Virus record (IMG/VR): IMGVR_UViG_3300006751_000010
Coordinates: 1 to 62,673 of that record
Reading direction: 5' to 3' (one strand)
Source of the DNA: a virus
Length of the DNA stretch: 62,673 nucleotides
Both the position numbers and the translations under genes were made by a program. Under the pieces are notes generated by a model, which saw only the letters and a program-made list of their open reading frames with translations, did not search any database and had not been told where the DNA came from. Below, piece by piece: positions 2,828-60,653 of the stretch (within the stretch, counting starts at the first letter, position 1; every line of letters starts with the position of its first letter).

Positions 2828-2828
2828 A

Positions 2829-3452: not shown

Positions 3453-3455
3453 ATT

Positions 3456-4736
3456 TTATGCTTTTTGTAAATTAGGTAATTTTAATTTTGGTAATTCATT
3501 TGTTGATTTTAACTTTGGTAATTCTAATTTTACTTGTTGCGGAATATCTGATACATTTTGTTGAATCATATTAATAATATCTTCATATGATTTAGATATA
3601 TGTTGTTTAGTAAAATTAGATCTAACAAAATATCTTTGCCGTTTTGCTAATTCAGACCATTTTTTATAATTTTTTAAAATGTCTTCAAACATTTTACTAG
3701 CATATTTATAATCTACAGAAAACCATTTTGCGCCTTTAATAAGAAATTTATCTCTAGCAGATTTATGAATTGGGGTTAATTGACCTGGTAAGGCACATAT
3801 AAAATCTTTTTTGAGAAAATCAACCTGTCCGGAATAATGTGGAGCGAGTATTGGTTTTCCTATAGAGCTAAATTCTAATAAAGGCCGGCCAAACCCTTCT
3901 GATTTTGTAAATGAAACCATTGCTTTAATTTTAGGGTGATTATATAATGCATTCATTTCGCGCGTAGTTAAATCTCCATGTAATAAATATACTGACGGTA
4001 ATTTATTATTTACAAATAATTTAGATATTTCGTTAATACGATTTTCTATATCTAATCTATCTGATACAGAATATGTAGCTCCGCTAGTTTTTAATATTAA
4101 AGCTGGGGTATTGTTTTTATTTTTATATGTATTAAAAAAGCAATGTAATAACCCAGAAAGATTTTTTCTATCTTCTCCTAAATATCCTTTTAACCAATGT
4201 CCTACACATAAAAACGCTTTAGACTCTTTTACTTGTTGATCGATAACTGAGATATTTGTTGTTACATTTTTATTATCATATAATGTATCATCAAAATATT
4301 CAGAAATAACTTGTATATTTGTTGTTATTGGTTTATTATGTTGTTTTGCTGTATCTTCAAATACTTTCTTCGTAAAATTACTAGGAACAATAGTTATTTG
4401 CATTTTATTTATATTATCAATCCATTCAGGAGGACAAATATCTCCTTCAGTGCCAGCCGTAACGCCGATATTATATTTGCCGACGGGTTGAAATTCATTG
4501 GGTACTGTAATTTGTACCCAAATATCTGGTTGTGATGTTAGTGGTAAAGGAATTATCTGGGCTTGCCACTCGGTTGGTATAGGATATGTAAATGGTGTAT
4601 GTCCCCATGGCATGGATAATAATTTAATGTTCCAATCATTTGGTTTTTTATCAAAAAAATTACTAATAACTTCTCGAGCGTGATGGCCATAGCCACTTTG
4701 TGTAGCAACTGGTGATGATATGATTACTGTTCGCAT
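3456..4736 (-). CDS. GT4-type glycosyltransferase with LPKLK tail
   Basis: Protein of 426 residues with a GT-B fold. The N-terminal glycine loop is in SPVATQSGYGHHAREVI. The C-terminal half has a KGYLGEDRKN region, and FTKSEGFGRPLLEFSSIGKP near residue 277 is the E-x7-E-type donor-binding motif of family 4 enzymes. The last 30 residues repeat LPKLK-type motifs (LELPKLK, ELPKLK, KLPNLQK). The upstream transferase carries the same motif at its N-terminus, hinting at docking between the two or to a shared partner. Its start overlaps the upstream gene by 13 bases. Function as a glycosyltransferase is well supported; substrate is unknown. Confidence 0.75.
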   Translation of the reverse strand: MRTVIISSPVATQSGYGHHAREVISNFFDKKPNDWNIKLLSMPWGHTPFTYPIPTEWQAQIIPLPLTSQPDIWVQITVPNEFQPVGKYNIGVTAGTEGDICPPEWIDNINKMQITIVPSNFTKKVFEDTAKQHNKPITTNIQVISEYFDDTLYDNKNVTTNISVIDQQVKESKAFLCVGHWLKGYLGEDRKNLSGLLHCFFNTYKNKNNTPALILKTSGATYSVSDRLDIENRINEISKLFVNNKLPSVYLLHGDLTTREMNALYNHPKIKAMVSFTKSEGFGRPLLEFSSIGKPILAPHYSGQVDFLKKDFICALPGQLTPIHKSARDKFLIKGAKWFSVDYKYASKMFEDILKNYKKWSELAKRQRYFVRSNFTKQHISKSYEDIINMIQQNVSDIPQQVKLELPKLKSTNELPKLKLPNLQKA

Positions 4737-6232
4737 ACTATTCCTAAATTTTTATATTTTTTTGGTGTTACTTTATTTAATGTATATCTTAATTTTGGTT
4801 GTTTTGGTACTTCAAATAAATAATTAATCATTTCGATCATTTTATTTCCCATTTGTTGTCCGGTTAATCCATTTTCTAAACAAAATGATCTTCCAGCAGC
4901 GCCACAATCTTTTCTAACATCGGGTGGTGTTTCCCACCATTGCATAATAGCATTAGCTACATCTTCAAATTTGACTCTATCATCAAAAATATATGGTGTA
5001 GCTGGAGATCCTTGTAATGATCTATTGCTAGGAAAAACAGGAGCCACCCAACGGCCATGTGTTTTATAGTTGCCTCGGTGATTTGTTGCGAAATCACCTG
5101 TAAATTGTAGCCATTTTCCATTTTCATCTAAAAAGCCGCATTGATCTTGTAATCCGCCAGTTACATTATTAATAATTGGAGTTTCAGATAATAATGCTTC
5201 TGTACTACTGAGTCCCCATCCTTCATTTGATGCTATATTAATAACGACATCTGCTACATTATACATTGCGTTTAATTCAGGTGCGGATAATTTTGATTCA
5301 GAAAATAATATTTTACAATTTGGTGCTAATATGTCTCCGATCGCTCTTAAATCTGTTCCATTGCTATCTACAACAACAGTATGCATTAATAATGCTACTC
5401 TAGATTGATCTTCTTTTGGTAATTTATCAACAAATGTTTTAAATGATAATATTACATCTCCTGGTTGTTTTCTTCTTATATTTCGATTATTCCAAAATAC
5501 AATAAAATCTACATTATTTTTTAATTTAATCTCTTTATGTAATTTTTTATATAATTCATCAGAATCATCTAATGGTTTAAATATATTATGATTTAATCCA
5601 TGAGGAACATATCCAGTAATTGTAGTATCTGAATATTTAAATTGATCTAATTTATTATCTTTATCATAATTTATAACATTAAATCCATTTTGAGTTAAAA
5701 CTTCCCGGTGGATGTTATCAGACTGACTACTTATACCCATAATAAGATCACAACTTGCATAAAATGGAGCATTCCACATTGGATATGGGAGATCATCCCA
5801 TATAGAATAATAAATAATAGGTATTCCGTATGTTGTTTTAATTTCATGTTCTATTTGATATAGCCACGTCCAATATCTAGGATCAGTAAAATGAAAAATA
5901 GCATCTGGTTTTTCTTGTGTCAGTAATGCAAATAATATATTTCTATCTCCATAACCAGACCACGGAATAATTTTTACTGATGCATCGTGTATTCCGGATT
6001 CTTTTGCGAATTCTGTAGATACGTCTACCCCTTTAGCATGATCCGGATGTTTAAGTGCTGCTCCTAATTGAACCCAATCATATTCTTTTACTGTATTTAA
6101 AATTATTTCTTTACTAATAGTACCTATTCCAGATGGCAATCTTAAATCATCTGAAAGTAATAAAATTTTTTTCTTTTTAATTTTAGGAGTAGTGGAGTCT
6201 ATTTTTTTTAATTTTGGCAATTTTATTTCCAT
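4724..6232 (-). CDS. GT4-type glycosyltransferase with N-terminal LPKLK segment
   Basis: Protein of 502 residues, first gene of the glycosyltransferase operon. After MEIKLPKLKKID and a basic stretch comes a GT-B N-terminal domain (ILLLSDDLRLPSGIGTISKE). The C-terminal donor site is INIASNEGWGLSSTEALLS followed by ETPIINNVTGGLQDQ, typical of family 4. A TATATTTAT-like element at 6256-6270 lies about 25 bases before the start, and the leader carries AAAAGG. It is expected to be cytoplasmic. The matching LPKLK motif in the next gene suggests that the pair works as a complex. Acceptor is unknown: DNA, tail protein or host glycan. Confidence 0.75.
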   Translation of the reverse strand: MEIKLPKLKKIDSTTPKIKKKKILLLSDDLRLPSGIGTISKEIILNTVKEYDWVQLGAALKHPDHAKGVDVSTEFAKESGIHDASVKIIPWSGYGDRNILFALLTQEKPDAIFHFTDPRYWTWLYQIEHEIKTTYGIPIIYYSIWDDLPYPMWNAPFYASCDLIMGISSQSDNIHREVLTQNGFNVINYDKDNKLDQFKYSDTTITGYVPHGLNHNIFKPLDDSDELYKKLHKEIKLKNNVDFIVFWNNRNIRRKQPGDVILSFKTFVDKLPKEDQSRVALLMHTVVVDSNGTDLRAIGDILAPNCKILFSESKLSAPELNAMYNVADVVINIASNEGWGLSSTEALLSETPIINNVTGGLQDQCGFLDENGKWLQFTGDFATNHRGNYKTHGRWVAPVFPSNRSLQGSPATPYIFDDRVKFEDVANAIMQWWETPPDVRKDCGAAGRSFCLENGLTGQQMGNKMIEMINYLFEVPKQPKLRYTLNKVTPKKYKNLGIVCEQ

Positions 6233-6255
6233 TGTAACCTTTTACTTTTATAACT

Positions 6256-6270
6256 TTTATATAAATATTA
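6256..6270 (-). promoter_or_regulatory. TATATTTAT-type late promoter candidate for the glycosyltransferase operon
   Basis: On the minus strand the sequence reads TAATATTTATATAAA, the same element that precedes most structural genes. It lies just upstream of the first glycosyltransferase start, in the gap after which the SLOG gene lies. Motif recurrence is seen in the sequence; promoter function is inferred. Confidence 0.5.
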
Positions 6271-6675
6271 TTAACCTAAAATAACTACTGGTTTTTTTAG
6301 TTTATTTATGTTAGTATATGCTGTTTTTAATACAGGATCTAATTTTTCTTCGTTAGTCATAATAATCATGTAATCACAATTTTGTGCTAATAATTTCATT
6401 CTATGATGTAATTGACTGAAATGATATTGTTTTCCGTAATATGATTTGGGCATGGCTGAATATAAATTATATCCTGAAAATGATGGATTATATTCTTGAT
6501 ATTTCAATCCAAATTCTAATGTATATTTTCTAACCATACTATTGGCACCTTCTTTTCCTCCTGCTCCTAATACAGTAACATCATCACCGAAACGATGTTT
6601 AAGTTCTGTTAAAGTTTTTTGAACTTTTCTTCGATTTTGCCAATTTGTATTTCCTAGTACCGCTACTTGTTTCAT
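6271..6675 (-). CDS. SLOG/YpsA-like nucleotide-binding Rossmann protein
   Basis: I chose the ATG at 6675 (134 residues) because it has an AGGAGA ribosome-binding site ten bases upstream and overlaps the upstream nuclease stop as ATGA; a start nine codons earlier is possible. KQVAVLGNTNWQNRRKVQ, then VLGAGGKEGANSMVRKY near residue 45 (conserved glycines plus a basic helix), and a final MIIMTNEEK...PVVILG resemble the SLOG superfamily (YspA/DUF2493, DprA-like). These proteins bind nucleotides or nucleic acids. Coupling to an Fe-S nuclease suggests a shared task in DNA processing or nucleotide sensing. The exact function is unknown. Confidence 0.55.
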   Translation of the reverse strand: MKQVAVLGNTNWQNRRKVQKTLTELKHRFGDDVTVLGAGGKEGANSMVRKYTLEFGLKYQEYNPSFSGYNLYSAMPKSYYGKQYHFSQLHHRMKLLAQNCDYMIIMTNEEKLDPVLKTAYTNINKLKKPVVILG

Positions 6676-7628
6676 TCTCGTATTCTCTCCTGTTTTGGAC
6701 AATTAACTTCATCTGTTTTAAATGGGCACCATTTGCAATGTTTATTACCTTTGCCGGCAATTGCTAAATAGTTAGCGGAGGTATTTTTATTTCCGTCTTC
6801 ATCAAAACAATTTGATATAAATGCATCTATACTTTTTTGAACTTTTCTTTGAGTAACAGTACCAGCTGCTGGTCTGTGAATTTGTATACGTTTTTGTGGA
6901 AACATTGAATTTTCAATTAATTTTCTTTTAACTATAAAAAATTCAACATCTATTTTTTCTTTAGGTATTCCAAATTGTTTAGAAAAATAATTTTTATATG
7001 CAACTAATTGTGCTGATTTTATATTATCCGCTTTTTGCCATTTATTCCAACCCATTCGGCTAGTTTTTATATCATATATAGTTATACTATTAGTTGGAAT
7101 ATGTCTAACAACTAAATCTATAAATCCATACCAATATACAGACGAATTTTCTTCAGAAGCTTGAGAACATAATTCAACTTCGATTCCAACTAATTCATAA
7201 TTTTTAGTAGAAAAATATTGAGCTCGTTTCTTTTTAAACCAATCTAATATAGCAATACCATCTTCTAAATATTCAGTTAATTCGTCAGGATTAGAAAAAT
7301 GTTCTCCATTATTTTTTTCTACAGATTCAGTATATTCTTTTCTTAAATTATTAATTAACATCGTAGATAAATCTAATTTATCTGCTTGTTTAACTGAGTC
7401 TGTATATAATATGGTTAAATAGTCTTGAAGTGTTTCATGAAATGCAGTACCAAAACTTAAATTAATGCCATAATTAAATGGAGCTAATCCGTCTATATAT
7501 GATAATTTCCATTGTTTAGGACATTTTTCATACATTGACCATTGTGAGTATGATATACGTCTAGGTACTTGTGTTGCATCCCTTAAGGATAACTTATAAA
7601 TTGGATTAATATAATTGCCGCTTTTCAT
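6672..7628 (-). CDS. PD-(D/E)XK nuclease with Cas4/AddB-like iron-sulphur cluster
   Basis: Protein of 318 residues. It begins with ISYSQWSMYEKCPKQWKLSY (first cluster cysteine, near residue 37), followed by a helix with GTAFHETLQ. The catalytic core is GFIDLVVRH and TIYDIKTS, giving D-x(n)-D-x-K, with a QLVAYK motif nearby. Three clustered cysteines at the C-terminus (KHCKWCPFK, then NCPK) complete a 4Fe-4S site as in Cas4 and AddB. It is probably a 5'-directed single-strand or end-processing nuclease in recombination or replication. It overlaps the SLOG-like gene by ATGA and follows the clamp-loader genes. Family assignment is firm; role is inferred. Confidence 0.75.
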   Translation of the reverse strand: MKSGNYINPIYKLSLRDATQVPRRISYSQWSMYEKCPKQWKLSYIDGLAPFNYGINLSFGTAFHETLQDYLTILYTDSVKQADKLDLSTMLINNLRKEYTESVEKNNGEHFSNPDELTEYLEDGIAILDWFKKKRAQYFSTKNYELVGIEVELCSQASEENSSVYWYGFIDLVVRHIPTNSITIYDIKTSRMGWNKWQKADNIKSAQLVAYKNYFSKQFGIPKEKIDVEFFIVKRKLIENSMFPQKRIQIHRPAAGTVTQRKVQKSIDAFISNCFDEDGNKNTSANYLAIAGKGNKHCKWCPFKTDEVNCPKQERIRE

Positions 7629-10211: not shown

Positions 10212-11462
10212 TTATAATTTAAAAAATTCGTTAAACTTATTTGCGTCTGTAGTAGAAATACTATCTCCTCCAAACTTTTTATATGTCTTTTTATATGTTG
10301 CGTATACATTTAATGCATTATCTGGATCTGCAAACATTTCATGTAATGATAAAATTACATTGAATAATTGAGTGGGTATTGCAGTTTCTAATAATTCTAC
10401 ATGACTATCAACCATTTGATTGATTTCTTCTGCTATTTTTACATATAGATGAGTATTATGTATAACCATTCTAGGCATACCTTCTTGAGAATATCTATCT
10501 AACCCTGTTGATGTCTGTCCTCCCAAATAATCATATGTAAAATCTTTACATGCCGGGCAATCTAAACTACAAGGAACATGTTTAGTTTTATCTATAGTTA
10601 CACTTTCTTTTCCTTGTTTAATATGAGTTTTTCTACGATATTCTGCATTTTTAGGAAAATATAATTCTGTAAATGTTTGGGTCTTATGATTTCCAGAATG
10701 TAAATATGTTCCAAATACTGGATATTGTCCTGGAGAAGATGAATCTGTTGATAATTGTACTCGTCCATTTGTATATTCATTTAATAACTTCTGTAATGTC
10801 GATAATATATAAAAGTCTGATATTTTACTTATTCCTAATAAATGAATAAATTGTACATGTTTCTTTTCAAATTCTCTTTCTTTTAACATTAATGCAACAA
10901 CATACATAAAGTCTACTAATTTTTTAGGACCTCCAATACACCAGCCATTAAAATCAAAATCTTTAAATTTATGATACCATTCATGATATTCTTCACTATA
11001 TGTACCTTGAATAACATTTAAAAATTTAGTTTTTCCACTTTGATGTTTTTCAAACCATTTAAAATTATCAAAACTAATGTTCATAGAATCATTAAATCTA
11101 TTTTCATATGTAGCTCTAGGTGGTATATCTAAATTAGCTGCTACATCTGAGTTAGCTTCAAGCCAATGAAATATTTTTTCTCGTATTGTAGTATCCCATT
11201 TTAAAGCACCAGTTGCTATTTGAAATCCGCCACTATCTCCAAATACAAATACATCATCTTCTAATCCTATTTGTTGCCGGAAATCCATTTTTTTATAATG
11301 ATGACCTGCTGTAATTAAAAAATAAGGATGTCTCCAATCTGCAGGATATTCTGAAGAAAAGAATCTTGTTGTAGTTCCGTCTTCAAATTTAGTATTCTTT
11401 TTAAAAGCAGATACCATTGATCCTGCAGATAACGAAGGAAAATATATAAAATTTTTATCCAT
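10212..11462 (-). CDS. dpdA: DpdA-like DNA 7-deazaguanine transglycosylase (TGT superfamily)
   Basis: Start taken at 11462, where TAATG overlaps the upstream stop (416 residues); an ATG six codons earlier is possible. Numbering here uses the longer form. The protein has the tRNA-guanine transglycosylase hallmarks: GDSGGFQ with the base-recognising Asp82, a WCIGGP loop near 183, TDSSSP with candidate nucleophile Asp246, and a zinc site of C304-x3-C308-x2-C311 plus His341 in IHNTH. Phage members of this family (DpdA) exchange guanine in DNA for a 7-deazaguanine. FolE, QueD and QueE upstream make the precursor. A tRNA-directed enzyme is less likely given this context. Fairly confident. Confidence 0.8.
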   Translation of the reverse strand: MDKNFIYFPSLSAGSMVSAFKKNTKFEDGTTTRFFSSEYPADWRHPYFLITAGHHYKKMDFRQQIGLEDDVFVFGDSGGFQIATGALKWDTTIREKIFHWLEANSDVAANLDIPPRATYENRFNDSMNISFDNFKWFEKHQSGKTKFLNVIQGTYSEEYHEWYHKFKDFDFNGWCIGGPKKLVDFMYVVALMLKEREFEKKHVQFIHLLGISKISDFYILSTLQKLLNEYTNGRVQLSTDSSSPGQYPVFGTYLHSGNHKTQTFTELYFPKNAEYRRKTHIKQGKESVTIDKTKHVPCSLDCPACKDFTYDYLGGQTSTGLDRYSQEGMPRMVIHNTHLYVKIAEEINQMVDSHVELLETAIPTQLFNVILSLHEMFADPDNALNVYATYKKTYKKFGGDSISTTDANKFNEFFKL

Positions 11463-11647
11463 TACTCTATAATTTCCCATTGACTTTTTGGATTTTCTAT
11501 TTTTTGTATATTATTTAATATAAAAGTAACTATTTCTGCTACATCTTTTTTTAGATATCCTTTTTTATCTAATTTATTTGCTAAACCAATTAATGGTGTT
11601 TCGATAGTATTTTTTATTTCTTCGATTCCTTGTTGATTAATTTTCAT
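11462..11647 (-). CDS. small hypothetical protein upstream of dpdA
   Basis: Protein of 61 residues beginning MKINQQGIEEIKNTI, predicted to be largely helical, with no recognisable motif. Its stop codon overlaps the favoured dpdA start as TAATG, so its translation may feed ribosomes onto dpdA. It could be a small partner of the transglycosylase or only a coupling peptide. No homology recognised. Confidence 0.4.
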   Translation of the reverse strand: MKINQQGIEEIKNTIETPLIGLANKLDKKGYLKKDVAEIVTFILNNIQKIENPKSQWEIIE

Positions 11648-16474: not shown

Positions 16475-17254
16475 TTAAACTCCTCGTTCTGTATTAAATG
16501 CTATGATATGATCTCGTCCTGTCATATTATATCCTTCTTCGGCACACATATAGAATACTATTGGATACATTAATATTAATTGTTTCCTTGTATCTCCTGC
16601 TGGCATTACAAATGTTTTATGTTTTGGAATATTCATCTTGACTCTAAAATCTTCTATTTCTTTTAAATTTGATACAGTACCATTCCATACAGGTTTATAG
16701 TGGTAGTCGTGGTGGTATTTTAAAGTTTGATCAATCGCTTCGTAATTCAATCTCAATCGATTATGTGTTTTAATCATTTTTTCGTCAACCACTTTACCAG
16801 TTGGCGTCTTAGCATCCAAAACGGGAATACTATTACTAAACTTAGGACTGAGACTAATAAGATTAATAGGATAATCAGTAGGTAAAAAATGTGAACCTTC
16901 AGTCTCAATAGTGATAAAAATTTCTCTTTCATTTGCAAAATGTGTTAATTCATTAACTAATGCTGGATGTATGGTTGGTGATCCTCCAGTTAACATCATC
17001 TCTTTAATATGAGGGTTTTCATCATATATTTTAATAATATCATTAAAATTAAATGTTCCTTTTTCTGGATGAATAGAAGTATACCAACTATCACACCAAC
17101 CACCTTCACCAAAATAACATCGATGGGTACATCCGGTTGTTCTAACTGCTATAGTAGGCCGGCCTAATCTACTGCCTTCGGATTGAACACATCTGTATAC
17201 TTCTAATACTGGTAATGTCTTATTATAATCTGTTATTCGTTTCAATTGTTTCAT
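16475..17254 (-). CDS. queE: QueE, 7-carboxy-7-deazaguanine synthase (radical SAM)
   Basis: Protein of 259 residues. It converts 6-carboxytetrahydropterin to 7-carboxy-7-deazaguanine using S-adenosylmethionine and a 4Fe-4S cluster. LEVYRCVQSEGSRLGRPT matches the QueE N-terminal signature, followed by the cluster loop TTGCTHRCYFGEGGWCDSW (Cys42, Cys46, Cys54). The spacing is C-x3-C-x7-C rather than the canonical C-x3-C-x2-C. MMLTGGSPTIHP is the SAM-binding GGxP-type motif. Together with folE and queD upstream it forms the first three steps of the 7-deazaguanine pathway. The upstream gene ends two bases before. Confident in family. Confidence 0.88.
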   Translation of the reverse strand: MKQLKRITDYNKTLPVLEVYRCVQSEGSRLGRPTIAVRTTGCTHRCYFGEGGWCDSWYTSIHPEKGTFNFNDIIKIYDENPHIKEMMLTGGSPTIHPALVNELTHFANEREIFITIETEGSHFLPTDYPINLISLSPKFSNSIPVLDAKTPTGKVVDEKMIKTHNRLRLNYEAIDQTLKYHHDYHYKPVWNGTVSNLKEIEDFRVKMNIPKHKTFVMPAGDTRKQLILMYPIVFYMCAEEGYNMTGRDHIIAFNTERGV

Positions 17255-17697: not shown

Positions 17698-18243
17698 TTA
17701 TAGTACTCCGCCATTTTCTCTTCCATTTACAAAACCAATTATTTTTTCTGGTTCTTTTTTGTTAATTTCATAATATACTGATGAATTTTTTTCGTTCTCA
17801 AAACATTCTACTTTTACGACTTTACATCTTCCAGCATCTGTTTTAGATAGAACTTCATTAAATTTATCATAAACTAATTTAGCACAACTCTCTGCTCCCA
17901 TTTTATCTAAAAAATGAACTTTACATAAACCCATTTGAGCCATTTGTTCGAATATATCTCGATATGGATCATTTGATTGGATTAATGTTGTATGGTCCCA
18001 CATATCATTCATCCATGATTTTAAACCATTTCCCTTTGGTGCATCTTTAAATCCACCATAATCAACTATCCAATTCATATCATCTAATCCATCATTTTCA
18101 TCAAATGGCGTATTAGACTCAAACCACACTTTAAATTTTAAAGCATATCCATGTAGTAACTGACAATGTGAATGTTGTGCTTTCCATTGTCTTATTGCAA
18201 TTGAATAATTATCAAATATTTTAGTTGATTGAAATTTACCCAT
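17698..18243 (-). CDS. queD: QueD-like 6-carboxytetrahydropterin synthase
   Basis: Protein of 181 residues. KAQHSHCQLLHGYALKFKVW holds His24/His26, catalytic Cys27 and His31. The canonical C-x3-HGH is C-x3-HGY here. A WDHTTLI segment provides the catalytic His, GAESCAKLVYDKF corresponds to the usual PT/S-xEN-x-A helix, and VVKVECFENEKNSS contains the C-terminal Glu region. The enzyme turns dihydroneopterin triphosphate into 6-carboxytetrahydropterin, the QueE substrate. Its start overlaps the folE stop by eight bases, so the two are coupled. Family is confident; whether the HGY variant changes metal binding is open. Confidence 0.8.
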   Translation of the reverse strand: MGKFQSTKIFDNYSIAIRQWKAQHSHCQLLHGYALKFKVWFESNTPFDENDGLDDMNWIVDYGGFKDAPKGNGLKSWMNDMWDHTTLIQSNDPYRDIFEQMAQMGLCKVHFLDKMGAESCAKLVYDKFNEVLSKTDAGRCKVVKVECFENEKNSSVYYEINKKEPEKIIGFVNGRENGGVL

Positions 18244-18943
18244 TATAATAACCTTTTATAAATTCATAAAACTCTGCTCTAGTAGCAGTATCATCTTTAA
18301 ATGCTCCTGTTAGTTTAGAAGTTTTCATAGATGCTCCTCCATGTTTAACTCCTCTACACTGAACGCAATTATGAGTAGCTTCAATCATAACTGCTACTCC
18401 TTTATTATCATTAATAATAGTATTTATAGAATTATGAATAGCAACTGTTAATTGTTCTTGTATTGCTCCTCTTCTTGCAAAATGCTCTACTAATCTATTT
18501 AATTTACTTAATCCAATTACTTTACTATCTTTGCCTGGTATATATGCTACATGAACTTTACCCATAATAGTTTGATGATGATGTGAACACATCGATGTTA
18601 ATGGAATACCTCCTTCAAAAACCATGCCGTCATAACCATCACTAGGAAATGCGGTAATATCTGGAGCTTTATCATATCTACCAGCCCATAGATCATTAAC
18701 ATATGCTTTTGCTACACGGTTGGGTGTATTATTTGAATTAGGATCATTTTCCCAATCAACACCTAATGCAGTTAAAAATTCTCCATAATAATAAGCTGCA
18801 GCTTCAATAATAGAATTTTTTTCTTCTTGAGATAAATTACTATCAGATCCTTTAATTATTTGTTTATTTTCTAATTGTTTAGATATTCCATTAGCAAACC
18901 CAGCTTTTACTAATTCTAAATTTTTTCTTTGTGTCTTTGTCAT
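18236..18943 (-). CDS. folE: FolE, GTP cyclohydrolase I
   Basis: Protein of 235 residues, close to the bacterial length of about 220. The zinc site is formed by Cys119 and the following histidines in SMCSHHHQT and by Cys193 in HNCVQCRGVKH. The family signature GLSKLNRLVEHFARR, followed by QEQLT, is intact. It makes 7,8-dihydroneopterin triphosphate from GTP, the first step of both folate and 7-deazaguanine synthesis. Its neighbours queD, queE and dpdA indicate the latter. A TTGAAA-16-TATAAT promoter ends only about ten bases before the ATG, so the mRNA may be almost leaderless. Very confident. Confidence 0.93.
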   Translation of the reverse strand: MTKTQRKNLELVKAGFANGISKQLENKQIIKGSDSNLSQEEKNSIIEAAAYYYGEFLTALGVDWENDPNSNNTPNRVAKAYVNDLWAGRYDKAPDITAFPSDGYDGMVFEGGIPLTSMCSHHHQTIMGKVHVAYIPGKDSKVIGLSKLNRLVEHFARRGAIQEQLTVAIHNSINTIINDNKGVAVMIEATHNCVQCRGVKHGGASMKTSKLTGAFKDDTATRAEFYEFIKGYYNG

Positions 18944-51842: not shown

Positions 51843-53426
51843 CTACAGAAGCCAGGTTAAATTTTCATCATCTGTTCCATTATTCCATTTCCAACCTGTA
51901 TTGTCTGCATTTGGTTTTCCTGTATATATAACTGAATCTGATTTTTGCAAACGTGTAATCGCTCGTTTATTTAAATCAATTCCTTGTTGTCTTAATTTTA
52001 ATGATGTATCCCGTAACCAAAGGCCTATTGCAAAACTCATTACTAAATCATCATTATATCCAATTTGTGCTTGAGCTTTGCCATTTAACCAAACAAACAC
52101 AAATAATTCTTGTATTAATCTTTTACTGCGTATTAATGGAGTTTTCTCTCTCATATACATTTCTAAGGCAGATATCATTAATGGTCTTGTTCTGCTAGTA
52201 GTAGAAACTCCAGGTACCATTTTTGTTTTATCTTTTATATCATACCCTTTCTTAAGATGTACCTCTAAATCTACATATCCATCATCTTTATATGTGTAAA
52301 ATAAATTTTCATAATTTCTATCTAATGCTGGTTGAATTGCTGCCCATCCGATATTTGCATTTTCAATTGCTAATAATGCATTATTCCATTCTGTTGCAAC
52401 AGAAACAAGCATATTTCCAAAATCTTTTGGTGGGAGTTTTCCTTTGTATTCAGCAACTTGTTTTATAGATTCAATTTCTATAACATGGAATGTAGACCAA
52501 TCAGCTCCATCTCCCCGGGCAACGTCTGCTACCACTACATAGTCTTGACTATAATCCGGATATTCCCATATCCAATAAGCATTGTCATACCCTCTTTTTT
52601 CAACAGGTTCGATACATTTATTTTCATATTCTTGTAAACATTTACCTTCTACAACAGTATGTCCGGAGGAAACAAAATCACAATCACATTCCTGTGCTGC
52701 CCCCCTTTCTCCTAATAATTGAGTTTGTCTTCTCCTCCATTCTTCATCTCTTTCTGGATGTACTGTCCAATGTAATTTTATATTATACCATTCTGTATTT
52801 GGATTAGTTTCTCCATCAACCCATGTTTTATGAAACCAATTTCCTATACCATTTGGGGTAGAAAGTACAATAGCCGATCCACCAGTTGATAATGTTGCTT
52901 GCGATGCTATCCATATTTCTTCTACATTACGAATAAAAGCTGCTTCATCAACAATTAATAATGATAAGGCTTCTGAACGAGCTCCTGTTGTTGCGGAAGA
53001 AACTGCTTTTATTTGTGATCCATTTCTGAATTTTAATGATAATTTATTGTCTGCTTCTATATTACCTTTTAGCCAACTCGGTAAATTGTCATGCATAATT
53101 CTAACTTTAGTCACTAAATTTTTAGCTACTTCTTGTGTAGTTGCAATTACCAATGTATTGAAATCTTCTTTAAATAACATACACCATAAAGCATAGCCGG
53201 CTGTAAGTGTTGAAATACCTAATTGTCTAGATTTTAAAATTACATTATAACGATTCTCTTTTAATTCAGATAAAGATGTTTCTTGAAAATTATATAAATT
53301 AAATTTTATTTTACCTCTTTTTGGGTGTTGTATATAACAATATTGTCTCATGAAAAATATAGGATCTGCAGCACATGTAGTGTACTGTTGTCGTATTAGA
53401 TCTTTTATATTTGGTTTATTAGACAT
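51843..53426 (-). CDS. 17: large terminase subunit, gp17-like
   Basis: Protein of 527 residues (T4 gp17: 610). The ATPase domain has VILKSRQLGISTLTA (Walker A), LLIVDEAAFI (Walker B) and STPNGIGNWFH (coupling motif). The RNase H-like nuclease domain has VVVADVARGDGADWSTF, a central ALLAIENANIGWAAIQ, and GYNDDLVMSFAIGLW with the final metal-binding Asp. It packages and cuts DNA concatemers. No small terminase subunit is recognised in the window. Very confident. Confidence 0.95.
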   Translation of the reverse strand: MSNKPNIKDLIRQQYTTCAADPIFFMRQYCYIQHPKRGKIKFNLYNFQETSLSELKENRYNVILKSRQLGISTLTAGYALWCMLFKEDFNTLVIATTQEVAKNLVTKVRIMHDNLPSWLKGNIEADNKLSLKFRNGSQIKAVSSATTGARSEALSLLIVDEAAFIRNVEEIWIASQATLSTGGSAIVLSTPNGIGNWFHKTWVDGETNPNTEWYNIKLHWTVHPERDEEWRRRQTQLLGERGAAQECDCDFVSSGHTVVEGKCLQEYENKCIEPVEKRGYDNAYWIWEYPDYSQDYVVVADVARGDGADWSTFHVIEIESIKQVAEYKGKLPPKDFGNMLVSVATEWNNALLAIENANIGWAAIQPALDRNYENLFYTYKDDGYVDLEVHLKKGYDIKDKTKMVPGVSTTSRTRPLMISALEMYMREKTPLIRSKRLIQELFVFVWLNGKAQAQIGYNDDLVMSFAIGLWLRDTSLKLRQQGIDLNKRAITRLQKSDSVIYTGKPNADNTGWKWNNGTDDENLTWLL

Positions 53427-53807: not shown

Positions 53808-54154
53808 TTTTTCTTTGTTTTAGATATAATATTTTTCTTTGCAGTTGCAGTGGACTTTTTCTTTGGCGGATGTTTTGCTGCTGGTTTTTTTAATTTTGAT
53901 GATTTTGTTTTTTGAATTTGTTTCTTTTTAGCAACAATTTTCTTTTTAACTTCAGTTTTTTGGTCTTCTACTTGTTCAACTTTTCCTTGCAATTTTTCTA
54001 CAGCTTTTTCATTTTCATTGATCTTTTTATCAATTTTTTTAACTGCTTTTCTTTTACGAATATTACCTAAAGTAATTATACTCAATACGAGTACAATAAT
54101 ACCTACTAGTATTTTCCAAGATTTTTTAAGAATCTTTGTTATTATTTTTATCAT
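53804..54154 (-). CDS. membrane-anchored lysine-rich coiled-coil protein
   Basis: Protein of 116 residues. It has a basic start, one membrane helix (WKILVGIIVLVLSIITLGNI, about 12-32), a coiled coil (KIDKKINENEKAVEKLQGKV), and a very basic tail rich in KK and PKK. It could be a spanin or holin-like partner of the signal-peptide protein with which it overlaps by ATGA, or a structural membrane protein. The lysine-rich tail would suit nucleic-acid or membrane-surface binding. Function not recognised. Confidence 0.4.
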   Translation of the reverse strand: MIKIITKILKKSWKILVGIIVLVLSIITLGNIRKRKAVKKIDKKINENEKAVEKLQGKVEQVEDQKTEVKKKIVAKKKQIQKTKSSKLKKPAAKHPPKKKSTATAKKNIISKTKKK

Positions 54155-54809
54155 TTTGTATTTCTTTTAATTTATTATATGAAATTTTTTCCACATTGGA
54201 AAGTTTTTCTTCAATATTTTTTAAAAATTTATCTTTAAACTCATCAAATTGTTTTTGTACCGTTTCTTCAAATTCTTCTACAGACATTTTTGAATGCCAT
54301 GTTTCTACATCTCCTTGTGAATTTTGTACGAATTTAGCACTTTGAGTATATGCTTCTTTTAATATTTTTATATCATCTTCTGCTCTTTTTAACCACGCTT
54401 CTGCATTATTTCGAATTCTATTTCGTTCATATTCTTCAAATTTACCTTCCTTTCTTAATTCATGTTCCATTTGTATTACACAATCAAAGCACATTCCATG
54501 TATTTTTTGCATTTTTTTATCTAGATGGGTTGGAACTTCGCATTTACAATCTTTGCGGCAATTAGGAAATGAATTTAAATATGATTGAATATCCTCTCTT
54601 ATAGAATTTTTTGGTTTTTTTACCCGGAAGCCTTTTTTTTGTTCTATAGTATATAATGTGCCATTGATAGTTTCTTCCCATTTTTCCCCAACTTTTCGAA
54701 TTTGATGTTTTTTTCCAGTATATAATCCTACTGAATTTTTTGTTTGAGTACGATGGGTACCTTCTATCATTTGTTTGATAGCTTTAATGTTTTGTAACTT
54801 TTTTGCCAT
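54126..54809 (-). CDS. cysteine-rich zinc-binding hypothetical protein
   Basis: Protein of 227 residues. A probable zinc site lies near residues 82-117: NCRKDCKCEVPTHLDKKM, followed by IHGMCFDCVIQMEHEL, which gives CxxxCxC...CxxC. The N-terminus is basic and the C-terminal half a long helix (EEFEETVQKQFDEFKDKFL). The pattern is one I associate with small proteins in marine T4-like phage head clusters, but I know no assigned function. It overlaps the next gene by 29 bases. Confidence 0.5.
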   Translation of the reverse strand: MAKKLQNIKAIKQMIEGTHRTQTKNSVGLYTGKKHQIRKVGEKWEETINGTLYTIEQKKGFRVKKPKNSIREDIQSYLNSFPNCRKDCKCEVPTHLDKKMQKIHGMCFDCVIQMEHELRKEGKFEEYERNRIRNNAEAWLKRAEDDIKILKEAYTQSAKFVQNSQGDVETWHSKMSVEEFEETVQKQFDEFKDKFLKNIEEKLSNVEKISYNKLKEIQNDKNNNKDS

Positions 54810-54813
54810 GGTT

Positions 54814-55704
54814 TTAGTTTTCTTTATTTTTTTTATTTAATCTTCTTGTTTTAAATAAACTACGAACTAACATTTTTATAGCCATTTTCCAATCATTTGG
54901 ATCGGCTTCTTCATATGCCATTGAAAATGCTTTAGATATAAATTGAACTTTATTTCTAACTCCTACTTTATCTTTGATAAATTGAGCCGTTTTTTCTTCT
55001 GGTGTTTTGATTATAGGCTCTGATGCAGTTTTTGTTGGTATTTCAGTTGCCGGTAATGTGGGTAGAGTTTCTGCTGCTGGTGTTGGAGCAACTGGTGCTA
55101 TGGCGGCATCTGTTGGTGCCGGATCAACTGTTGGTGCCGGATCAACTGTTGGTGCAGTATCATCTGTTGGTGCAGTATCATCTGTTGGTGCCGTATCATC
55201 TGTTGGTGCCGTATCTAAGTCGGCTTCATCCTCTGCTGCAGTTTTGATAGCACCTTCTTCTTCTTCTTCTGCTTCTTTTATTTTTTGTTCTGATATAAGT
55301 TTTTTTAGTTTTCTACGAACATACTCTCGAACTAATCTTTCTTTTTGCTCTCTTGTAAGATTTTCTATTTTATCTTTTATTTCTTGTTTACTATCCTTTT
55401 CGTCTGCATCTTGAAGTTTAGCTCTTTCTTTTGCAGTATGTTTAGGATCATGATCGCCTTCTACTTTATAATATTTCGCAACGTGTTTATCTTTTGGAAC
55501 CATATTATCTACATCATCAATAACTAATTTATCTGTTTTACGTAATACATTTGTTTGAGGTTTTCCAACAGAATTAGGATTCATCCCTCCATCTTTATCG
55601 TCAGCAGTATAATCTTTAAGATCTTTCCTCGCTTCTTGTTTTTGAGATTTCTTAAAATCTTTTGGTTCTTTATATTTACTTTTATGTTTTTCTGCTCTAG
55701 CCAT
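54814..55704 (-). CDS. repeat-containing charged hypothetical protein
   Basis: Protein of 296 residues. It has a basic/acidic N-terminal half (EKHKSKYKEPKDFKKSQKQE), then a helical RLVREYVRRKLKKLISEQ, then acidic EEEEE, and a run of TAPTDD-type hexapeptide repeats near residues 165-205 that shifts to PTVDPA and ends in proline/alanine/threonine-rich sequence. A C-terminal helical region follows (FIKDKVGVRNKVQFISKAFS). The repeats correspond to 18-base tandem DNA repeats. It may be a flexible virion protein. Not recognised. Confidence 0.45.
   Translation of the reverse strand: MARAEKHKSKYKEPKDFKKSQKQEARKDLKDYTADDKDGGMNPNSVGKPQTNVLRKTDKLVIDDVDNMVPKDKHVAKYYKVEGDHDPKHTAKERAKLQDADEKDSKQEIKDKIENLTREQKERLVREYVRRKLKKLISEQKIKEAEEEEEGAIKTAAEDEADLDTAPTDDTAPTDDTAPTDDTAPTVDPAPTVDPAPTDAAIAPVAPTPAAETLPTLPATEIPTKTASEPIIKTPEEKTAQFIKDKVGVRNKVQFISKAFSMAYEEADPNDWKMAIKMLVRSLFKTRRLNKKNKEN
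55111..55216. repeat. 18-base tandem repeats inside a coding gene
   Basis: Six units of about 18 bases of the form TGTTGGTGCCGTATCATC on the plus strand start at 55111, 55129, 55147, 55165, 55183 and 55201, with small variation. They encode the APTDD/APTVDP hexapeptides. Unit number may vary between relatives by slippage. Confidence 0.85.
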
Positions 55705-55721
55705 TAGTTATTCCTATATAT

Positions 55722-55736
55722 TTTATATAAATATTA
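55722..55736 (-). promoter_or_regulatory. late promoter candidate before the repeat protein gene
   Basis: Minus strand TAATATTTATATAAA, about 18 bases before the ATG at 55704. Confidence 0.5.
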
Positions 55737-57782
55737 TCGTGCATACTTTAACGCTCCTACTACTTGATTTATAGGTGCAAATGCTCCTGTTAATTTATAT
55801 GTTTTACCTTTGAATACAAATACAATTCCTTCTGTCGGAACTATTGCATCTACTCCACCAAGTTTTTCTATTTTTTTTAATTGATGTTCTAATTTATTAA
55901 GTGCGTCAATGTTATCTGCTGTTTGTAATTGTTCTATTGTTGAAGAAAAATCTTGTTTTAAATCTTGAACAGCTTTATCAGGATTAGCTGATAAAAAGTT
56001 TTGTGCATTTTTTAAAACTACTACACCTAATCTTAAAAATATACTTTCAAATGGTTCCATATTTTGTTTTTGATATGTCTTGAAATCATTTTTATCAAAA
56101 TTATTTACCCAGGCTGAAAATTCTTCAGATTCAATATTTTTTAAAATATTTGTTATTCTAGGTGATTTAACATTAAAAGCCCAACGATATACTAAATTAT
56201 TTAAAATATCATCTGTAATATTATATTGCATTGTGGTTGCTTGTTTTTCTATAACTTCTGCCCACCAGGCTTTATGATATTCTGTTACTAAGTCTGTTTC
56301 TTTTAATCCATAATGATTTCTTAATTGATCTATTTCATTAAAGAAAGCTTCTTGTTGATCTTCAAAATCTGTTATTCGTCCTAATTTAATTTGATGTGGA
56401 GGAATAAAAGAAAATGTTTTTTGTAAATGTGCATTAGCTTCTTGAACAACACTTTGTATGAGTTTACCGCCACTCATATCTGTTAATATTGCTTGTCCTG
56501 TTTCTAAATCAAATTCTACTAGATTATGAAATTGTAATACTGCTATTTCATATGTTATAGTATTTTTTGTTTCTGGGTATATAATTTCCATGTTAGCAAA
56601 TACTTTACCATTTTTAAAAATACCGTTTAATTTTTTTTGATCAACACGACTAAATGCTTCTGCTAAATCTTCTGCAGATAATCCGAATGCTCTTGATACT
56701 GCTCCCCGACCGGCAAATTTATCTTGTATAACTTGTACTGACATCGGATTTTTAATTGTTCGTACGCCTCTTGCAAATCCAATCTGTCCGGCTTTAAAGG
56801 TTACGAATATGTTTTGTCCATCAGTTTTTTCGGTTACTGCTTCTTCAATATCTAATCTACCTTGCAATGCTCTAGACACCATTTCCTTCATATTATTAAA
56901 AGTTAATGAATGATCATCATATGGATGATTCATATGGCCTCCTGCGCCTCCTTCAGTTATTAATTGTTTTGATTCATTAATTTTTTTATTATTATATGTA
57001 GTTTTTGCATTAGCTCCAAAAATTGTTTTTTCAAAATCTTTAAAATCATATACAAATTCTCTTCCGTGATTCTTATCTAAAAATGCTCGAAGCTTATCTA
57101 GTTTCTTTTTGTGTTTTTTAGCTCCTTCATGCCCCATCGATCCTTCTAATATTTTATGAAATTCCGGTTGTAAATTTTTTATCCACCATTCTTTGGTTAG
57201 AACTGGTTTATTAGTTAATATTTCCCATGCATTGCTTATGATAGCTTCTAGTTGTTTTGGATATGATGCTTTAAATATACTATAATCATCATTGGCTAAT
57301 GATTGTCTTACAGTTGAAGCACTTATTGGTTGTCCATTTTCGTATGCTAATGGATCTACATCTAAATTTAATTCTATAGCATCTACACCTTTGGCAATCA
57401 TTCTACCTTCTTTATCTCCGGTGATTTTATACATATCTACATTTGGTACAAATGTTTTGGTTCTAACATAATCATCTCCTTTTGTAGAAGCTGCCATGGC
57501 ATATCTACCTATCCATTGTTCTGGCAATTCAAATAAAAATTCATATGCTGCTTTGATAGGAGAATTAAATTCTGTGGGCCGTATTTCTATGTTAGGATTT
57601 TTATTTAATAGATTAAATAGCTCTATAGTTTTCTCTCTGGTGATGCCGGCTCTTGGTTTTGGGCTGCATAACATGATAACACGATCTACTTCTGGATGTG
57701 CTGCGTATCGATTGGCTAACTCTAAATGAGCTCCGGTTATTGGTTTGAATCCTCCTGGAAATAATACTGTTATGTCTTTCAT
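55734..57782 (-). CDS. fusion of CoaD/NMNAT-like nucleotidylyltransferase and RNA-ligase-like domain
   Basis: Protein of 682 residues. Domain 1 (about 1-180) has LFPGGFKPITGAHLELAN, the GxFxPxTxGH-type motif of cytidylyl/adenylyltransferases such as CoaD and NMNAT (His19), and ISASTVRQSL (153-162), matching ISSSxxR. Domain 2 (about 290-682) has the covalent nucleotidyltransferase motifs: VTEKTDGQN (motif I, Lys319), FANMEIIYPE (motif III type), TEGIVF (Glu651, motif IV) and YKLTG (Lys663, motif V). These mark an RNA- or DNA-ligase fold. The combination suggests both NAD-type nucleotide chemistry and nucleic-acid joining. I recognise no standard homologue with this exact fusion. Confidence 0.7.
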   Translation of the reverse strand: MKDITVLFPGGFKPITGAHLELANRYAAHPEVDRVIMLCSPKPRAGITREKTIELFNLLNKNPNIEIRPTEFNSPIKAAYEFLFELPEQWIGRYAMAASTKGDDYVRTKTFVPNVDMYKITGDKEGRMIAKGVDAIELNLDVDPLAYENGQPISASTVRQSLANDDYSIFKASYPKQLEAIISNAWEILTNKPVLTKEWWIKNLQPEFHKILEGSMGHEGAKKHKKKLDKLRAFLDKNHGREFVYDFKDFEKTIFGANAKTTYNNKKINESKQLITEGGAGGHMNHPYDDHSLTFNNMKEMVSRALQGRLDIEEAVTEKTDGQNIFVTFKAGQIGFARGVRTIKNPMSVQVIQDKFAGRGAVSRAFGLSAEDLAEAFSRVDQKKLNGIFKNGKVFANMEIIYPETKNTITYEIAVLQFHNLVEFDLETGQAILTDMSGGKLIQSVVQEANAHLQKTFSFIPPHQIKLGRITDFEDQQEAFFNEIDQLRNHYGLKETDLVTEYHKAWWAEVIEKQATTMQYNITDDILNNLVYRWAFNVKSPRITNILKNIESEEFSAWVNNFDKNDFKTYQKQNMEPFESIFLRLGVVVLKNAQNFLSANPDKAVQDLKQDFSSTIEQLQTADNIDALNKLEHQLKKIEKLGGVDAIVPTEGIVFVFKGKTYKLTGAFAPINQVVGALKYAR

Positions 57783-57797
57783 TTTATATAAATATTA
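57783..57797 (-). promoter_or_regulatory. late promoter candidate before the ligase-fusion gene
   Basis: Minus strand TTAATATTTATATAA, lying immediately before the ATG at 57782 and overlapping the end of the fibre gene. Confidence 0.45.
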
Positions 57798-60653
57798 ATC
57801 TAATTGTTTCCATGATCCATTTAGATAACAATATGCATGTTGATTAGCACCAGATCCGGAGACAACAAAAGTACCAGCAGCTGTTGATATTATAGATCCA
57901 GTTATTTCAGTTGGATGTACTGGGGGTAATGTTATACTAGCAACTGTGATTGGACCGGTATCTATACGAGATAATGCTACAATTTTCCAGTCAAATGTAC
58001 TCTGAGCTAACACAATTCTAGTTCCTTGTGTTACTAGCATTGTATTTGGATATGTTACTCCATTAATGGTATATTCTTTAAATAACCCCGCATACATATC
58101 ATCTGTAAAGATTTTACCGCCGGCACTCGATACACCAAAAACGGTGTCAAATAATATTTCTGCATCAGGGTGATTACTATCACTCGGTACTGCTGATATA
58201 AAAATTCCATGAATTGATGCAACTTCTATTATACATATAGCTCCATATTTTTGATAATTATTACCTGTTGTCCAATATGAATCATTGGGATGTAATCTTA
58301 TATTTCCTATAGGATGATCATCTAAATCAGTACCAGCTTCGAGTCGTAAAAATGTAGATGGGCCGTTACTAGTTATTGATGAATCATAACTGCCAGTTAA
58401 ATTTATCGCAACATATTCGCGAGATCCGTAAGCTGGTATTGTAGCATTGAATGTTGATAAAAGTGTATCATTACTGTTAACTGTCGAATTTCTAAATAAA
58501 TACATATCTGCTAAATTAGTACCTCGAAATTCTCCACTAGATGCTATAACATCTCCGCTACTACTAACAAGAAAATTACTAGATGATATTTCTAATAATC
58601 CATTGCTTCCACTTAAATACGATGAACTAGGATGTCCTAAAAAGAATTTAGTAGTTCTTATATCTAATTCGTCATCAGATGTACTATATCTAAAATAACT
58701 TTCAGTGTTTGCATATAATTCTAATCCTACTCCGCTATATGCAACTCCTTTAGAAGTTTGTCCGGGCATTGCAGAGCCTGACCAAAGTAAAAATCCAGGA
58801 AACCCGGCATCAAATCCTTGATAACTCAATGATCTAATAAAACCAGAATTTGGATATCCGCTAATAGCAACACCAGTTTCTAAAGAGTCAGCTACATATA
58901 ATGAGCCTGTCATTAAAGAATAATCGCCATCTATATAACGATTACCTCCTTGCCAATTTTTATTGTATATATATGATATTTGTTTACTACCAGCTCCGTC
59001 TGCATTATAATATTCTAATTTAAACGAAATTTGATTTCCTAATTTATGTGTAGTTTCTATAGGAGTTTTTATTCGTGTATAGTTAGGAGTATAACCAGAA
59101 TCGTTATCTGATAAAATATGTACATCTGCAAGTTGCCAATCTCCAGATTCAACAACAAATATTAATTTACCTTTACCATTATTATCACTTTTAAAACTAA
59201 AACTTTTGTCATCTACTCGTTGACTGTTTCCTGATAATTTTAATTGTCCTACTTTTTTTCCTATATTAACTGGTAATTCTTGATTTAAAAAATCTGTTGA
59301 ATTAAAGTTAAAAGCACTTCCAGATATATAAATTGATAATGTTGGATCTAAATTATTACTATTAGCACTTCTTGTTCCTATAGCATCTAAACGAACTTTA
59401 TATGCAGAATCTTTTACAAAAATTCCCATATAATCGTCTTTTACTTGAAATGTATGCACGCTATTTGCATTAGCAATGTTTGTAGAGCTTTCTATTTTTG
59501 CTCCGCCGGATAATGAACTAGTATACCATACTAAAGAAGGAGCAGTTGTTGTAGTATTTCCGATATATGTATTAGCTTCCCAAAAATCAATTAAACTTTG
59601 TGAAGTAAATAAACCTATAGTTTCATCTGGAAATAAGGATGCTGTATTTTCTATAAGAATTTCTGTTTCTTCTATTTCAAAATCATTTACTAAGTCCCAT
59701 GTGCCAACAGTACCTTTATTATTAGTAAAAACTTTGATTCTAGAAACATCTCCAGCAGCTGGATCTAAACCGCTTACTTGAATATATGCAAATGATTGTG
59801 AATTTTGAGTAGCAGTATATACTGGCGAAGCTTCATAATCTATAGTAAAGGCAGAATGATCAAATGCCCCATATGTATGAGGTGAAATACTTTGGCTACT
59901 AAATACCGTATATTCTGTATCTAATAAAGCCGAGCCAGTTGTTAATATTTTTTTTATCGTAGACACATACGCCGTGCTAGGCACCGTATATGTAGCCGCA
60001 GGCGTAGGATTTGATGGACTAGCAACTGTTAATGTGCCTCCTTTCATTTCTGATGTTAATTCTCCCCCTAATATTTCTATAGCTGGTTGATTATTTGATG
60101 AATAATATCTAACAGTGCCTGTATTATATGTAGGAAATTGTCCTGTTCCTGGATAACTTCGATCTAATTGTACTCCTACTATTTCTTCAACTGTAACACT
60201 AGGTGGTGTTTCAAATATTATTTCAGATATATTAGTAATATTAGGATTAACTGGAATTGTTCTACTCCATCTAACGTTAGCCTTTCCTTGCCAGTTAATT
60301 GGTGTAGGAGCTCCTTCGATTATTGCAGCTTCTGCTACTAATGTTATAGTACAATCTCCAGGCGATGTTTCTTCGTAAATGTATATTGCAATTGCTCTAG
60401 ACTTATCTTCATCGATGAAGTCTACAATTTGATGATATATAGGATCTCCGTTATAATCTAAAACTTCTACCCCTAATACACCACCAGGTTTTAAATTTGT
60501 TGGATGTCCTCGAAGTTTAAATACATTTTTACCGGCTGTAAGTTTTGTGGGAAATTCTGTAATTTGAAAATATTCTGGAGATGTTAATGATGTATCTTCA
60601 AAATCAATTGGTATAAATTCTAAACCTTTATATACAGCTTCTTTACGTTCCAT
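57795..60653 (-). CDS. large tail fibre/receptor-binding-like structural protein
   Basis: Protein of 952 residues, beta-rich, serine/threonine/glycine-rich and of low charge, typical of trimeric fibre or adhesin proteins. The N-terminal 150 residues (KLTAGKNVFKLRGHPTNLKPG ... CTITLVAEA) look like an Ig-like attachment domain. The middle has repeated strands; SSSYLSGSNGLLEISSSNFLVSSSG resembles the shaft-like repeats of fibres. The C-terminus (IISTAAGTFVVSGSGANQHAYCY ... NGSWKQLD) is a small globular tip. Receptor binding is inferred, not shown. Position beside the ligase fusion and gp46-like gene is unusual for a fibre gene. Confidence 0.6.
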   Translation of the reverse strand: MERKEAVYKGLEFIPIDFEDTSLTSPEYFQITEFPTKLTAGKNVFKLRGHPTNLKPGGVLGVEVLDYNGDPIYHQIVDFIDEDKSRAIAIYIYEETSPGDCTITLVAEAAIIEGAPTPINWQGKANVRWSRTIPVNPNITNISEIIFETPPSVTVEEIVGVQLDRSYPGTGQFPTYNTGTVRYYSSNNQPAIEILGGELTSEMKGGTLTVASPSNPTPAATYTVPSTAYVSTIKKILTTGSALLDTEYTVFSSQSISPHTYGAFDHSAFTIDYEASPVYTATQNSQSFAYIQVSGLDPAAGDVSRIKVFTNNKGTVGTWDLVNDFEIEETEILIENTASLFPDETIGLFTSQSLIDFWEANTYIGNTTTTAPSLVWYTSSLSGGAKIESSTNIANANSVHTFQVKDDYMGIFVKDSAYKVRLDAIGTRSANSNNLDPTLSIYISGSAFNFNSTDFLNQELPVNIGKKVGQLKLSGNSQRVDDKSFSFKSDNNGKGKLIFVVESGDWQLADVHILSDNDSGYTPNYTRIKTPIETTHKLGNQISFKLEYYNADGAGSKQISYIYNKNWQGGNRYIDGDYSLMTGSLYVADSLETGVAISGYPNSGFIRSLSYQGFDAGFPGFLLWSGSAMPGQTSKGVAYSGVGLELYANTESYFRYSTSDDELDIRTTKFFLGHPSSSYLSGSNGLLEISSSNFLVSSSGDVIASSGEFRGTNLADMYLFRNSTVNSNDTLLSTFNATIPAYGSREYVAINLTGSYDSSITSNGPSTFLRLEAGTDLDDHPIGNIRLHPNDSYWTTGNNYQKYGAICIIEVASIHGIFISAVPSDSNHPDAEILFDTVFGVSSAGGKIFTDDMYAGLFKEYTINGVTYPNTMLVTQGTRIVLAQSTFDWKIVALSRIDTGPITVASITLPPVHPTEITGSIISTAAGTFVVSGSGANQHAYCYLNGSWKQLD

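Follow-up and report, generated by a model that had tools for sequence, protein, structure and literature searches.

Gene content of the locus

The window analysed here is the whole 62,673-nucleotide stretch of viral DNA in IMG/VR record IMGVR_UViG_3300006751_000010, and by gene content the source phage is T4-like. On the minus strand, at 55734..57782, lies a gene with an ATG start that encodes a 682-residue protein in which a HIGH-superfamily adenylyltransferase domain is fused to a domain with a predicted RNA-ligase fold. Stop codons are abundant when these positions are read on the plus strand. The reading frame had been picked out by a prediction made from the sequence alone (the original prediction) and it is real: relatives were found in IMG/VR in two scans (275 in the first, at least 527 in the second, with an alignment), and together with the invariant ligase residues described below they make it more than a chance opening.

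The gene is located in a head-gene cluster, as the original prediction had also stated. The genes for the large terminase subunit (51843..53426, minus strand; homologue downstream in 224 relative loci), the gp20 portal, the gp21 prohead protease and the gp23 capsid protein form a late cluster on the same strand as the fusion gene. The gp21-like protein is a prohead serine protease (PF03420; 47849..48481, minus strand) expected to cleave L/I-x-E sites. Upstream of the fusion, a 952-aa gene that appears fibre-like by eye (57795..60653, minus strand) has homologues in 72 relative loci, and in 53 of these they directly adjoin the fusion gene on its upstream side. On the other side, a 227-aa protein with Cys motifs (54126..54809, minus strand) has a homologue just downstream in about 225 loci. 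Directly downstream of the fusion gene, an acidic protein with repeated TDDTAPT units is encoded at 54814-55704; its homologue is adjacent downstream in 92 related loci.

Domain organization and active sites

Structure prediction and profile comparison confirmed residues 1-190 (57213..57782; minus strand, like all parts of the fusion gene given below) as a domain of the NaMN/NMN/pantetheine-phosphate adenylyltransferase fold whose active site is intact, in agreement with the CoaD/NMNAT-like domain proposed earlier. Pfam gives a CTP_transf_like match just under the cut-off. A profile of the N-terminal family, compared with the PDB, retrieves NaMN, NMN and pantetheine-phosphate adenylyltransferases (best 5e-8, with NaMN adenylyltransferase), and the top Foldseek matches of the model are NaMN/NMN adenylyltransferases (probability 1.0). 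All motifs cited in the original prediction were recovered when the DNA was re-read. In this domain they are the HIGH-type nucleotide-binding motif GGFKPITGAH (residues 10-19; 57726..57755) and the ISxSxxR motif ISASTVR (residues 153-159; 57306..57326). G10, P14, H19, S154 and R159 are invariant in 34 diverse sequences, which corresponds to HxGH-like and ISxTxxR motifs on a Rossmann-like fold, with the first His of the HxGH-like motif replaced by Thr in the family, as in CoaD. Distinct members bearing the domain show only H19-type and ISxTxxR-type variants, apart from one sequence that starts past the first motif. A broken Rossmann active site had been named as evidence against the original prediction; its motifs are intact. 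The linker to the second domain (residues 191-276; 56955..57212) is mostly of low confidence in the model.

Residues 278-682 (55737..56951) gave no match in Pfam, PHROG, NCBIfam or PDB sequence searches, and the Rnl1 family PF09511 did not match the window protein in Pfam. A first model of the whole protein, made from a shallow alignment, was poor in its C-terminal half. An alignment of 94 sequences remedied this, and the resulting model of the ligase domain (pLDDT 87.6, pTM 0.86) retrieved RNA ligases first, so that structure prediction, the check suggested in the original prediction, recovered a ligase-fold domain recognised by no sequence library. In Foldseek, RNA or tRNA ligases account for 28 of the 32 best PDB hits, among them an archaeal RNA ligase, T4 Rnl1, T4 Rnl2, the fungal tRNA ligase and a Naegleria ligase. 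Four entries carry the label DNA ligase or Pmar-Lig, and unrelated proteins follow below these 32. Capping enzymes are absent from the leading PDB matches. The scores are modest (E 0.003 to 0.2, TM-scores about 0.2), the low TM-scores probably because a helical insertion of about 200 residues separates motifs IIIa and IV (residues 439-640; 55863..56468), an interval that is short in known RNA ligases. Among the viral structures of BFVD, the family's own members come first and known viral RNA ligases next.

Profile alignment places Lys319, which lies within motif I (EKTDGQN, residues 318-324; 56811..56831) as originally claimed and is predicted to accept AMP, on the active-site Lys of both Rnl1 and Rnl2. 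Glu399 of motif III (ANMEII; 56580..56597) falls on the Rnl1 active site and is aligned with 'NFEFVAP' of T4 Rnl1, within an 'NxE..xP...xxY' stretch that, like the motif I Lys, aligns between T4 Rnl1 and the window family. In the profile comparison, the ligase family 'ANMEIIYPETKNTITY' is aligned with Rnl1 'NFEFVAPTNRIVLAY'. Motif Ia (FAR, Arg338) lies at 56769..56777, and motifs IV (EGIVF, within TEGIVF, residues 650-655) and V (YKLTG, residues 662-666, with Lys663) at 55785..55835. The hhalign E-values of the family are 0.012 against Rnl1 and 0.005 against Rnl2, compared with 0.009 between Rnl1 and Rnl2, and none of 8 unrelated control families scored better than 0.083, although the absolute hhalign probabilities are low (below 10%). 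Conservation is strict: K319, D321, G322, R338, E399, E651, G652 and K663 are identical in 252/252 ligase domains, as are 20 of the 21 positions checked, all ligase-motif residues included, and the last is identical in 251/252. The KxDG motif, motifs Ia, III, IV and V in order and the predicted fold are those of the covalent nucleotidyltransferase (ligase/capping) superfamily. We conclude with high confidence, from model and sequence, that residues 278-682 are predicted to adopt a ligase fold and constitute a previously unrecognised RNA-ligase-like family. We rejected an NAD-dependent ligase in view of the absent Ia domain and of the nearest folds, which are RNA, not NAD+, ligases.

Conservation of the domain pair

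The adenylyltransferase is fused to the ligase domain in 83 of 86 complete distinct members. In the huge phage LR756500 the ligase stands alone as a 421-aa gene and the neighbouring gene encodes the adenylyltransferase, and in LR756508 a ParB-like domain precedes both domains; the LR756508 ligase domain, used as query, gave no further relatives. A search of genome_contigs returned only 5 matches, on short MAG contigs that probably stem from phages, and hence no sign of a cellular family. Cyanophages carry the two domains in reversed order as adjacent genes, which are fused in S-PM2. The S-PM2 fusion protein, of 591 aa, begins with a ligase-like part (KWDG, EGFV, K-I-V) and ends with one of HIGH type, and in the viral structure library the ligase-domain model matches a 591-aa S-PM2 protein with probability 1.0. 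In many other cyanophages the pair consists of adjacent genes annotated 'hypothetical protein' and 'cytitidyltransferase', which overlap in P-HM1. The cyanophage ligase-like gene is present in 414 records, and its family matches the window ligase family with E 0.005-0.006, against at least 0.044 for unrelated families. We hold the domain coupling with high confidence; the pairing is functional, not accidental. Our literature searches returned no earlier description of the fusion, although a prior mention may exist.

A separate observation concerns positions 1492-3254 of the P-HM1 locus and about 414 phage records, in which the cyanophage cluster T4-GC 71 (PHROG 455) resembles a ligase-fold enzyme and is paired with the 'cytitidyltransferase' T4-GC 190.

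Companion modules in relatives

Marine members are about 800-2463 aa long and carry further modules. A P-loop kinase resembling polynucleotide kinase is carried by about 21/86 members. Where unfused, it may be encoded by a gene of its own upstream, at a distance of 7 bp in locus L242 and present likewise in L177, L179, L203, L225 and L237. The kinase profile matches L-seryl-tRNA(Sec) kinase and the kinase domain of Clostridium thermocellum Pnkp (4mde, 4gp6 and 4jst, which we take to be Pnkp entries). Ribosylnicotinamide kinase was also considered as an identity for the fused kinase and is disfavoured, the profile being nearer to the other two enzymes. The window's own ORFs include no homologue of the kinase module. 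A tRNA-nucleotidyltransferase (PolyA_pol) head domain is found in L104, L186 and L203, and L104 additionally has an RNA-binding domain and an HD domain. Its protein of about 2463 aa (1-7287) combines kinase, tRNA-nucleotidyltransferase, HD, HIGH nucleotidyltransferase and RNA-ligase-fold domains in one chain.

Other extra modules lie between the nucleotidyltransferase and ligase domains or before the nucleotidyltransferase in L177 (1450-5061), L208 (1914-6695), L195 (4347-9233) and L150 (2347-7275). In L177 they are a Pol-beta-like nucleotidyltransferase (by eye) and the aspartyl protease PF05618, and across the four loci NTN-hydrolase-like and hydrolase-like modules also occur. Many marine members share two conserved modules that lack annotation: a small KOW-like module after the leader (residues 18-66 in L186), which Pelagibacter phage HTVC008M also has in one of its hypothetical proteins, and a 'DDGPP..' module, usually between nucleotidyltransferase and ligase (residues 738-880 in L150).

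Possible packaging in the phage head

The T4 protease gp21 cleaves after L/I-x-E, and capsid-targeting leaders are removed in this manner (PMC9026906). A leader ending in L/I-x-E is present in 31/36 long members of the family versus 194/1187 other ORFs (Fisher p 4e-19, a value that overstates independence because the members are related), and in long relatives it occurs regardless of the domain that follows. The large relatives would probably be packaged through an N-terminal leader that the head protease removes. The window protein has no N-terminal leader; instead, an internal L/I-x-E, LITE (residues 274-277; 56952..56963), lies just before GG and may be a gp21 head-protease site. Among window-like members, 29/30 have L/I-x-E directly ahead of the ligase domain. 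This stretch is disordered in the model, so the head protease might separate the two enzymes, and from the sequence, cleavage at the internal site is possible in window-type members. The idea that this site is universal was rejected, since some marine members have LLLMGG.

Mass spectrometry of S-SCSM1 and S-CREM2 virions detected proteins annotated as NMNAT-like or cytidylyltransferase, which we liken to the family by description, and such proteins are reported for other virions (PMC9602691, PMC10665884). We infer that the fusion enzyme of the window phage is probably packaged in the head as well.

Proposed function and alternatives

The fusion could be a late bifunctional enzyme, probably packaged in the head, that repairs RNA and in particular tRNA; we give this explanation about even chances. 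The C-terminal domain would be an ATP-dependent RNA ligase of a new family, whose Lys319 would accept AMP from ATP and pass it to an RNA 5'-phosphate before the 3'-OH is joined. The NMNAT-type domain would act in the same pathway, either by supplying a cofactor for repair or directly on RNA ends, and in relatives the same polypeptide or operon would contribute a 5'-end kinase and a tRNA-nucleotidyltransferase/HD module. These companions make RNA repair the most likely task of the system, with tRNA cleaved by host defences as its probable object. Synthesized late, the enzyme would probably be packaged, injected with the DNA and then heal and seal RNA damaged by the host. Of the three options in the original prediction (an NAD-supplied ligase, RNA 5'-end capping or decapping, and repair of host-cut tRNA), the last is favoured by the kinase, tRNA-nucleotidyltransferase and HD domains, with tRNA as the presumed target. 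The two domains and the assignment to RNA ligases stand, while the NAD-supplied ligase is disfavoured.

Several points temper this explanation. The structural and profile scores are modest, the window protein is without the N-terminal leader, and its neighbours among the window's ORFs yielded no homologue of the kinase module. We know of no established RNA-repair pathway with a HIGH-family adenylyltransferase as a component, which counts against repair. Moreover, Mel-JY01 and LR756508 hold a canonical Rnl1 (PF09511) as a separate gene elsewhere. The new ligase is thus not simply their Rnl1, and plain tRNA sealing would be redundant in these phages. The huge phages carry numerous tRNA genes and the other relatives few or none; the window, which is a fragment, has no tRNA gene.

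A more specific version, in which a virion-injected RNA-repair machine uses its NMNAT-type domain on RNA itself, is quite unlikely in our estimate. It draws on chemistry: the NMNAT-type reaction, in which a phosphomonoester and ATP give an adenylylated phosphate, is that of App-RNA formation and could pre-activate the 5'-phosphate for the ligase. The reverse reaction could clear dead-end App-RNA.

Alternatively, the protein could supply NAD, converting NMN to NAD+ against NAD-depleting defences or for phage enzymes, with the ligase-fold domain as a secondary or NAD-using partner. The N-terminal profile is closest to NaMN/NMN adenylyltransferases with HIGH and ISxSxxR motifs intact, and cyanophage virions have been reported to contain NMNAT-like proteins (PMC9602691), yet we regard NAD supply as unlikely. 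Phage NadM has been reported always to co-occur with NadV (PMC9503650), whereas NadV is absent from 12/14 relative records searched, a set that includes several fragments and some records of 130-190 kb; the matches in the other two come apparently from the same huge phage. This absence weakens the NAD-supply reading and, with a ligase of the RNA type that has no need for an NAD-binding Ia domain, also tells against the NAD-supplied ligase. The companion kinase is closer to tRNA(Sec) kinase and Pnkp than to ribosylnicotinamide kinase, and NAD supply leaves the near-constant ligase partner unexplained.

A role in virion assembly, in fibre or head, with the enzymatic activity secondary, is suggested by the place in the late operon, beside the fibre-like gene (found in 72 window-type loci) and ahead of the terminase gene (224 loci), and by T4 gp63, since the T4 record annotates RnlA both as RNA ligase 1 and as tail-fibre attachment catalyst. 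However, marine members such as L237 have the fusion gene beside other neighbours, marine members gain kinase and tRNA-nucleotidyltransferase domains, and conservation of the catalytic residues is strict in both enzymes, so that we consider this very unlikely. Just as improbable is an effector role, in which the ligase fold would have been turned to adenylylating a protein or a small molecule. The ParB-like, PF05618 aspartyl protease, NTN-hydrolase-like and Pol-beta-like modules of large relatives do recall polyvalent effectors (PMC5512222), but the residues of ligase motifs I, Ia, III, IV and V do not vary and RNA ligases are the nearest folds. Capping enzymes and ligases share a common nucleotidyltransferase core, and the two domains are tightly coupled, but capping or decapping of RNA 5' ends, with the adenylyltransferase making NAD- or CoA-like dinucleotides or adding AMP to RNA 5'-phosphates and the ligase fold transferring nucleotides to RNA ends in the manner of capping enzymes, is the least probable reading, because the leading PDB matches are RNA ligases and the kinase and PolyA_pol/HD companions fit end repair better.

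Comparison with known systems and implications

T4 RNA ligase 1 (RnlA, gp63), also of a T4-like phage, shares with the family the core of a covalent RNA ligase, and the T4 polynucleotide kinase PseT has its counterpart in the kinase partner of the marine relatives. Unlike T4 Rnl1, the window protein lacks a PF09511 match, has the long helical insert, is fused to an adenylyltransferase and is encoded in a late head operon. Clostridium thermocellum Pnkp-Hen1 and fungal Trl1 likewise unite ligase and end-healing kinase in one polypeptide, and the relatives' kinase profile matches the Pnkp kinase domain as the ligase-domain model matches the fungal tRNA ligase; they differ in ligase family, whereas the present proteins have an NMNAT-type domain and are phage-borne. 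NadM and NadR of large phages join an NMNAT-type domain to a Nudix or kinase domain (PMC9503650), but here the second enzyme has a ligase fold and NadV is generally missing. The cyanophage 'cytitidyltransferase' (PHROG 395/3041) and T4-GC 71 (PHROG 455) are the same two domains, adjacent or, in S-PM2, fused, but in opposite order, with Q-x-D rather than E in motif III and with very low sequence identity. Polyvalent proteins are likewise very long, combine unrelated enzymatic domains and are thought to be injected with DNA; text searches of the article describing them (Iyer et al. 2017, PMC5512222) gave no HIGH nucleotidyltransferase-RNA ligase architecture.

The NMNAT-like or 'cytidylyltransferase' proteins repeatedly found in cyanophage virions have so far been explained as regulating host NAD. 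A near-constant and hitherto unrecognised RNA-ligase-fold partner, in both gene orders and in freshwater, marine and cyanobacterial T4-like phages, turns attention away from NAD metabolism and towards RNA repair. T4-like phages of this family may carry an RNA-repair toolkit inside the particle. If the enzymes are delivered with the DNA, defence by anticodon nucleases could be undone before any phage gene is expressed, and to our knowledge this would be the first case of virion-delivered tRNA repair. If the NMNAT-type domain acts on RNA, it would represent a new nucleic-acid activity for the HIGH superfamily.

Other genes in the window

Elsewhere in the window, TGT-like, radical SAM (QueE-like), PTPS (QueD-like) and GTP cyclohydrolase I genes are found at 10212-11480, 16475-17254, 17698-18243 and 18236-18943, respectively. 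They probably represent a 7-deazaguanine pathway, perhaps with a role in DNA modification. At 6271-6702, a 143-aa protein of the YspA/SLOG family (PF10686, below the cut-off) is encoded; its domain is associated with nucleotide signalling and with conflict systems.
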